A stretch of 64,000 nt of DNA from Methanoculleus frigidifontis (GTDB lineage: Archaea; Halobacteriota; Methanomicrobia; Methanomicrobiales; Methanoculleaceae), in NCBI RefSeq assembly GCF_030464345.1, contig NZ_VCYH01000001.1:62001-126000 (forward strand). The letters are read 5' to 3'. Below are positions 12,067 to 14,836 of the stretch, in pieces (the stretch's first letter is position 1; every line of letters begins with the position of its first letter). The notes beneath the pieces are model-generated. The model was not told the DNA's origin and ran no database searches. It saw only the letters and a list, made by a program, of their open reading frames with translations. A program made the position numbers and the translations under genes.

Positions 12067-13617
12067 TTAATAGTCTCTGTGTCCTCGTTTCGGCATCGGT
12101 ACGAGGCTATCTGCAGCAACACGGCCGGTGCCTGCTCTGCCGTTTTCATGGAGCCGGGAGAGATATGCATCCGCAACCCCGGCATGCGCATCCCGCGTCT
12201 CCTTCTCCATCCGGTTCAGCGTCCCGAGAAGGACACGCATGCGGGGGTTGGCCGCGATCTGCTCCTGGTGTGTCTCGATGAACTTCCAGAAGAGCCCGTC
12301 CCAGATCTCTTCCCATTCTCCGCCGGGATAATTGCTCATTCTCCTGATATAGTGCGAGCCGCTGATGTAGGGTTTTGTGGCCATCAGTCCGCCGTCCGCG
12401 TACTGCGACATGCCGTACACGTTCGGTACCATGGCCCAGTCGTATGCATCGATGAAAACCTCCATAAACCACCGGTAGGCCTCATCCGGATGGATTCCGG
12501 CGAGAAGCATGAAGTTGCCGAGTACCATCAGTCGTTCGATGTGGTGTGCGTACGCCGATTTCAGCACACGCTGCACGACCCTGTCGACGGGCACGACTCC
12601 TGTTGAGGCTGTGTAGAGTGAACGCGGCACCGGGTGGGGCTGACCGAATACATTGGACGATCGCTGCCGGTCGCCCTCTCTGATGTAGACCGCCCGGATA
12701 AATTCCCGCCACCCGATGATCTGCCTGATAAAGCCCTCAAGAGAGTTTATCGGAACAGGGTGCTCCCGGGCATACGCCAGTGTCCGGTCGACCACCTGCC
12801 GGGGGGTCAGCAGACCGGTGTTGAGAAGCGGGGAGAGAACTGAGTGGAAGAGCACCGGTTCATCTGCACGCATCGCGTCCTCATAATCACCGAAGAGAGC
12901 AAGCCGGTCTCCGAGGAAGTCTGCCAGCCAGCGTTCCGCGTCTCTATGGGTGACGGGGAACCAGAATTCGTCCAGGTCTCCGGGGTTGCCCGGGTAGCGC
13001 TCTTCAATGACCGATCGTGCGTCCCTGACGTAGCGGGTCTCGGGAATGCGGGGCAGCGGAGGAACCGGTACTTCGTCCGGGAGGGGCTTTCGGTTTGCAG
13101 GATCAAAGCTCCATCTGCCGCCGATCGGCTTGCCGTCCTCGATAAGAATGCCGAACCGTCTGCGCTGTTCCCGGTAGAATGCCGTGAGCGAGTACCTGTC
13201 TGACTGGCCGAAGAACGTGTCGATGAAATCCCTGTCGGTCAGAAAACCCGGGCTGTCCCGGATGGTAAGGTCGATGCCCCGTCTCCGAAGCGCTCCTGTA
13301 AGCCGTTCTTCAAGGGTTCTGTCACAGGGGTCGGCGATGGTGATCGTGTTGGCTGAGCGGGCAGCGAGAGCATGAATGAGGTCGGTCTGTGTTTGTCCGT
13401 GCTGGTTCCGGATGAAATGAATCGTATGTCCCTGCTCTTCCAGATACTCCCGGTAGGCCTGCATCGATGCACTGTGCAGAAGCAGTTTCTTTTTGTGATA
13501 CCGGAAGTCCGAGAAGAATCGGTCGTCCTCTACCAGATAGACGTTCGCCTCCTCCGTGAGTGCCGGATGTTCCCGAAAGAGCTGGTGTGGGAATACTATC
13601 GCTGCCTGATCCTTCAT
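12067..13617 (-). CDS. Cryptochrome/photolyase-related protein of the FeS-BCP (PhrB) group, lacking the cluster cysteines
   Basis: A 516-residue flavoprotein. The N-terminal Rossmann-like antenna domain (AAIVFPHQLF, then YLVEDDRFF) and the FAD-binding helical domain (AYAHHIERLMVLGNFMLLAG, then PNVYGMSQYADGGLMATKPY) match the prokaryotic (6-4) photolyase group exemplified by Agrobacterium PhrB. PhrB holds a [4Fe-4S] cluster through four Cys in the C-terminal half. Here the only Cys is residue 98, and the loop that carries the CxxC pair reads RRMSNYPGGEWEEIWDGLFW. Cluster loss is therefore clear; light-driven repair is still plausible through FAD. Confidence 0.85.
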   Translation of the reverse strand: MKDQAAIVFPHQLFREHPALTEEANVYLVEDDRFFSDFRYHKKKLLLHSASMQAYREYLEEQGHTIHFIRNQHGQTQTDLIHALAARSANTITIADPCDRTLEERLTGALRRRGIDLTIRDSPGFLTDRDFIDTFFGQSDRYSLTAFYREQRRRFGILIEDGKPIGGRWSFDPANRKPLPDEVPVPPLPRIPETRYVRDARSVIEERYPGNPGDLDEFWFPVTHRDAERWLADFLGDRLALFGDYEDAMRADEPVLFHSVLSPLLNTGLLTPRQVVDRTLAYAREHPVPINSLEGFIRQIIGWREFIRAVYIREGDRQRSSNVFGQPHPVPRSLYTASTGVVPVDRVVQRVLKSAYAHHIERLMVLGNFMLLAGIHPDEAYRWFMEVFIDAYDWAMVPNVYGMSQYADGGLMATKPYISGSHYIRRMSNYPGGEWEEIWDGLFWKFIETHQEQIAANPRMRVLLGTLNRMEKETRDAHAGVADAYLSRLHENGRAGTGRVAADSLVPMPKRGHRDY

Positions 13618-14161: not shown

Positions 14162-14836
14162 CTACGGAGGGCAGGCGAGCCGGCTAATCATGGCAAAAGC
14201 CTCTCTGATTGCCTGCCGGTCGTTCCGGACGCTCGGGTAGGGCGAGACGATCACGCACCGTCCGTCGGCCCGGATCGGGTGCCTTCGCTGGTGCAGCACG
14301 GCTTCGGTGATGGTTCTGCAGTCTGCAAGCGCCGCTGCATACGGTTCCAGCGATCTGAGCGCCTGCAGGGCGGTCGCGCCGAGGATGCAGATGGTCTCCG
14401 GGTCGAGCGCCTCTATCTCCGGTTTGAGGATCGTCCGGGCACTTTCTGCTATCAGCGATACGGGAATATGGGGGTGGGCATCCTTGTTGAGGATACACTT
14501 GACGGCATCCGTCAGAAAGAAGCCCTGATCCCTGAACGCCTCCAGGCACTCCTTTTTTGTTGCTCCTGCTATCCCGAGGCAGCGAAAGATCTCACGGCTG
14601 ATCCCGGCGATCGGCGTCTGCTCCGGGTTGTAAAAATAGCGGTATCCGGCTGGCCGGTCGACGTTCCGCCACGGGGGCGCCTCGGCGATGAAGAGAACCC
14701 GGATCCCGTCCTGCGGTAGCCAACGGCCGTAGGCGTCGTAGCGGGCAAACGGGATCGGGTCAGGGCGGATCCGCTCTCCGGCATATGCCCGACAGACCTC
14801 CCGCACCGCCTCCGCATCAGGGATGCCCGGCTGCAT
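14162..14836 (-). CDS. Uracil-DNA glycosylase superfamily-like protein
   Basis: A 224-residue protein of the UDG-like alpha/beta fold. IRVLFIAEAPPW (about 45-56) corresponds to motif A, TICILGATALQAL to the central strand, and CVIVSPYPSVRND near residue 195 to the C-terminal SP/HPS motif. The usual GQDPY water-activating residue is replaced by AEAPPW, as in family 4/5-like or uncharacterised members, so glycosylase activity is not certain. It follows deaD closely (3 bases after its start side) on the same strand and is probably co-transcribed after it. Confidence 0.65.
   Translation of the reverse strand: MQPGIPDAEAVREVCRAYAGERIRPDPIPFARYDAYGRWLPQDGIRVLFIAEAPPWRNVDRPAGYRYFYNPEQTPIAGISREIFRCLGIAGATKKECLEAFRDQGFFLTDAVKCILNKDAHPHIPVSLIAESARTILKPEIEALDPETICILGATALQALRSLEPYAAALADCRTITEAVLHQRRHPIRADGRCVIVSPYPSVRNDRQAIREAFAMISRLACPP

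Follow-up and report, generated by a model that had tools for sequence, protein, structure and literature searches.

A predicted cluster-less prokaryotic (6-4) photolyase in the methanogen Methanoculleus frigidifontis

A gene on the minus strand at 12067..13617 of a 64,000-nucleotide stretch of the Methanoculleus frigidifontis genome (the window, in whose numbering positions are given here) is very probably that of a cluster-less prokaryotic (6-4) photolyase, a light-driven DNA-repair enzyme of the subgroup M or PromaPL type, which would work with FAD and without the [4Fe-4S] cluster. The kind is already known and the gene adds one ordinary member to it, while the cluster-less branch of the prokaryotic (6-4) photolyases to which it belongs is both old and widespread. 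The host is a methanogen, with two copies of mcrA in its genome.

Family, fold and described relatives

The reading frame runs uninterrupted from 13617 to 12067, with an ATG start and 516 codons. Its product carries an N-terminal DPRP domain (PF04244; 188 bits, E 2e-55, against a Pfam cut-off of 22.1), and in a phmmer search its top PDB relatives were PhrB, CryB and the Caulobacter (6-4) photolyase (E 4e-89 to 2e-83), with alignments over about the whole length to the (6-4) photolyases of known structure, namely PhrB, CryB and the enzymes from Caulobacter, Vibrio and Synechococcus. The N-terminal PF04244 domain and the whole-length homology to PhrB and CryB are the marks of the PhrB-like family. 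An AlphaFold model made from a 67-row alignment reached a mean pLDDT of 92.2 and a pTM of 0.92, and was matched by Foldseek to the PhrB, CryB, Cc, Se and Vc (6-4) photolyases with TM scores of 0.85-0.91, other photolyases and cryptochromes lying far lower (TM about 0.5-0.6). A preliminary description of this DNA had called the product PhrB-type, and on this Pfam, the PDB homologs and the Foldseek scores all agree. Close upstream of the photolyase gene, at 14162-14836 on the minus strand, lies a gene of the uracil-DNA glycosylase superfamily (PF03167, 40.7 bits), which is not kept as its neighbour in relatives.

PhrB of Agrobacterium fabrum (4DJA), an FeS-BCP (6-4) photolyase, is homologous to the M. 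frigidifontis protein over the whole length (E about 4.9e-89, 36% identity), has the same fold (TM 0.90) and the same repair residues, but differs in having the [4Fe-4S] cluster, W342 and a DMRL pocket with E37 and R108, where the M. frigidifontis protein has P/P/gap/E at the ligand positions, Y335, and F34 and T101 at the antenna "ceiling". SePhrB of Synechococcus elongatus (8IJY), an FeS-BCP with an 8-HDF antenna, is similarly close in fold (TM 0.89-0.91), is likewise without the E37-R108 salt bridge and has a D loop that ends in a tyrosine like Y40 here; unlike the M. frigidifontis protein, it carries the cluster (PMC9178010).

The guess that cluster-less members might already be catalogued proved right, as seen in PMC9178010, PMC4619345, PMC9426592 and PMC12082625. 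The first of these, from 2022, describes a subgroup M of multiple lineages, all without the cluster cysteines, which includes PromaPL, a cluster-less prokaryotic (6-4) photolyase of Prochlorococcus marinus for which it cites Ma et al. 2019; it also advises that the name prokaryotic 6-4 photolyases be used for the whole group and FeS-BCP for a subtype within it. Cluster-less members are likewise described from picocyanobacteria (PMC9426592) and in general terms in PMC12082625. The M. frigidifontis protein has the features of subgroup M, in that the cluster cysteines are absent and it falls in the same clade as Prochlorococcus homologs, of which L025 lies within the clade without these cysteines. 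Beyond this, L025 and other Prochlorococcus sequences share with it W435, W439, P343 and the repair residues; it differs from the PromaPL type in its methanogen host and in its identity of about 44% to the Prochlorococcus sequences.

Cluster cysteines and the residues in their place

The whole protein of 516 residues has a single cysteine, residue 98, which lies within the N-terminal domain, and opposite the PhrB ligands C350, C438, C441 and C454 stand P343, P431, a gap and E437. The alignment and the residue count thus bear out the earlier statement that all four cluster cysteines are missing and that Cys 98 is the only cysteine of the protein, and the protein does not have the four [4Fe-4S] cysteines of a strict FeS-BCP. 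The motif NYPGGEWEEIW, which had been placed at the CxxC loop, is indeed found there, at residues 429-439 (12301..12333, minus strand), and forms a loop that is shortened relative to the C438-x2-C441 and C454 stretch of PhrB.

Homologs were gathered by a scan of genome contigs and by family searches in four phyla, namely the host's own and those of Rhodobacteraceae, cyanobacterial and Methanobacteriaceae MAGs. Across 192 aligned family rows, which include the M. frigidifontis protein and three PDB anchors and in which some loci were fetched twice, there were no cluster cysteines in 111, all four in 80 and one in a single row, the truncated sequence L098, with the contig scan being enriched for the cluster-less class because it was seeded with the M. 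frigidifontis protein. The four phyla gave draws that are not frequencies, because the best-scoring loci come first: among those returned and long enough, all 29 in the phylum of the Rhodobacteraceae were cluster-bearing, the cyanobacterial phylum gave 26 with the cluster cysteines and 2 without, the host's phylum 22 with and 3 without (one of the three, L110, being the same gene as L086, a homolog from the host's order), and that of the Methanobacteriaceae 10 of 10 without.

The residues that stand at the cluster site are themselves conserved. In 60 non-redundant cluster-less rows, G340, D345, W435 and W439 are present in every one and P343 in 59; in 66 cluster-bearing rows it is the four cysteines that are invariant, and the equivalents of these five residues are not. 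The first part of this signature lies in residues 340-347 (12577..12600, minus strand), with P343 at the position of PhrB C350, and the loop at the cluster site is about ten residues shorter in the cluster-less form. Chance or sequencing error behind the missing cysteines was ruled out, with the frame and the signature being kept across many genomes. Protein packing by P343, W435, W439 and the shortened loop would hold the place that the [4Fe-4S] cluster has in FeS-BCPs, a proposal argued from conservation; against it stands that PhrB mutated in its cluster cysteines was insoluble or not expressed (PMC4619345). PDB searches with the M. frigidifontis protein, with its model and with a Prochlorococcus member returned only cluster-bearing relatives and no solved cluster-less one.

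Phylogenetic position and age of the clade

In trees built with the cluster columns blanked, one branch parts the cluster-less from the cluster-bearing class, with an SH-aLRT of 100 in a quick tree of 126 rows and with bootstrap/SH-aLRT values of 100/100, and presence in 200 of 200 bootstrap trees, in a careful tree of 58 rows. It had been suggested that the M. frigidifontis protein was a member of the FeS-BCP group that had lost its cluster cysteines, with a place outside that group in a tree named as the sign against it, and the masked trees correct this: the protein sits across the 100/100 branch from the cluster-bearing FeS-BCPs and by that sign is not a strict FeS-BCP, while still belonging to the wider prokaryotic (6-4) family, and the absence of the cysteines belongs to the entire clade and not to this protein individually. 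That clade takes in methanogens, a Lokiarchaeote, Prochlorococcus, Bacteroidota, Planctomycetota, Verrucomicrobiota and others.

Within it, the protein clusters with five homologs from the same order, with support of 99 in the quick tree and 88/89 in the careful one, the nearest being L083 at 55-56% identity. No member was found in 36 further genomes of the host's taxonomic family, one of them of the same genus, and 5 of 24 genomes from other families of the order had one, a patchy presence that suggests gene transfer or repeated loss. One of the same-order homologs, L086 (G048 C7:11841-13271), has an in-frame TAA inside the matched stretch and is possibly a decaying copy.

The literature's case for a loss of the cluster lies in the resemblance between the cluster sites of these photolyases and of the primase PriL (PMC3204975) and in the view of the cluster as an ancient feature (PMC4619345). 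A tree of the FAD domain rooted with other photolyase classes kept each class coherent (75/62 for the four-cysteine class and 83/91 for that with none), with two outgroup rows being extremely long, and it fits loss and original absence alike. We regard as unlikely a history in which the cluster-less clade never had a cluster and is a sister lineage of the same age as the FeS-BCPs, having a Trp-Pro structure of its own at the cluster site and an altered photoreduction path; if this were true, the other branch would have gained the cluster, contrary to the usual view of it as ancestral. When the careful tree is drawn with a midpoint root, L103 (G212) branches deepest among the cluster-less rows and L089 (G086) among the cluster-bearing ones; both are from the host's phylum and are useful for rooting the family.

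Repair, host context and the role of the cluster

According to PMC4619345, repair by PhrB needs H366 and Y424, the latter for lesion binding as well, Y430 makes it efficient, and the electrons for photoreduction pass via W342 and W390. By alignment, the three repair residues are H359 (12541..12543), Y417 (12367..12369) and Y423 (12349..12351) of the M. frigidifontis protein, all on the minus strand, and D179, D254 and W390 are likewise kept as D172, D247 and W383. Conservation reaches far beyond this pair of proteins, with PhrB H366, L370, W390, M410, Y424, Y430, D179 and D254 identical in 111 of 111 cluster-less and 80 of 80 cluster-bearing rows. The outer photoreduction tryptophan departs from this pattern: W342 of PhrB is Y335 here (12613..12615, minus strand), a position held by tyrosine in 90 of the 111 cluster-less rows and by tryptophan in all 80 cluster-bearing ones. 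In the available portions of the literature on cluster-less members, no mention was met of this tyrosine or of the G340/P343/D345/W435/W439 signature. The 2015 paper (PMC4619345) does note that 7% of 464 family members lack Tyr460 and are also without the cluster cysteines; the position is F443 in M. frigidifontis, and phenylalanine in 87 and tyrosine in 24 of the 111 cluster-less rows.

In the working that we infer, FAD in the helical domain would be photoreduced via W383, with Y335 probably the outer step, and excited FADH- would pass an electron to the (6-4) photoproduct while Y417 holds the lesion and H359 protonates it. D172 and D247 would form a divalent-cation site, FAD may receive energy from an antenna dye bound in the N-terminal domain, and no metal of any kind would be bound at the cluster site, where tryptophan and proline would be packed. 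A repair enzyme adapted to work without the cluster, one of the two readings offered in the preliminary description, is the likely one, with all mapped repair residues kept. Its role is most likely (6-4) repair alongside CPD repair, a specificity read from these residues: the one other photolyase of the host has the class II model phr2 as its best NCBIfam match (530.5 bits, just under the cut-off of 550.05) and, since that enzyme is class II-like (CPD), a (6-4) enzyme would complement it.

The same residues bear on whether the cluster-less branch might have switched its substrate and be a CPD photolyase or one of mixed specificity, as has been proposed for the picocyanobacterial Phr2, for which PMC9426592 infers a possible CPD photolyase from the missing cysteines. 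We give this a slim chance, as the (6-4)-specific histidine (H359) and the pair of lesion tyrosines are invariant in the clade, a class II-like CPD photolyase is already present in the genome, and PromaPL is labelled a prokaryotic 6-4 photolyase in PMC9178010.

The second reading offered, a photoreceptor, here taken as mainly a blue-light receptor (cryptochrome) without repair, is still less probable. The wider family does include a regulator of gene expression, R. sphaeroides CryB (cited in PMC9178010), and Y335 in place of the outer photoreduction tryptophan would suit such a change; against this stand the retention of every mapped repair residue, which leaves a receptor role with no positive evidence, a tail past residue 495 that is short and predicted with low confidence, and the lack of a conserved gene partner, none of the tested neighbours standing beside a homolog in the five same-order genomes or at L002, L004 and L007. 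Least credible of all is a cluster or other metal held by ligands other than cysteine. Histidine, aspartate and glutamate can hold metals and the clade has D345 without exception, though nothing speaks for it directly; the only cysteine sits in the N-terminal domain, residues 431 and 437 at the old ligand positions differ freely from one member of the clade to another, as ligands would not, and the invariant W435, W439 and P343 resemble packing.

At the antenna site of the putative photolyase, F34 stands at the position of PhrB E37 and T101 at that of R108, with Y40 in the D loop, an arrangement closer to the 8-HDF than to the DMRL binders. The host has two CofH-type FO-synthase matches (L196 and L197; G000 C4:307555-308583 and C4:310540-311574), which score 467 and 421 bits, over the curated cut-off, and lie about 2 kb apart. 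Most of the cluster-less clade has F or Y at the E37 position, including the Bacteroidota, in which we know of no 8-HDF synthesis, and 8-HDF as the antenna of the M. frigidifontis photolyase is for this reason a weak lead.

What the cluster does in prokaryotic (6-4) photolyases is described as still open (PMC12082625). A natural clade that has all mapped repair residues and lacks the cluster offers a ready comparison, and the signature G340/P343/D345/W435/W439 provides specific residues to probe. As this clade keeps every mapped repair residue, its sequences suggest that the repair chemistry itself can do without the cluster, whose role may be structural or lie in DNA binding or redox. Methanogens are anaerobes rich in Fe-S proteins, and their use of the cluster-less form suggests that this form has more behind it than the avoidance of oxygen.
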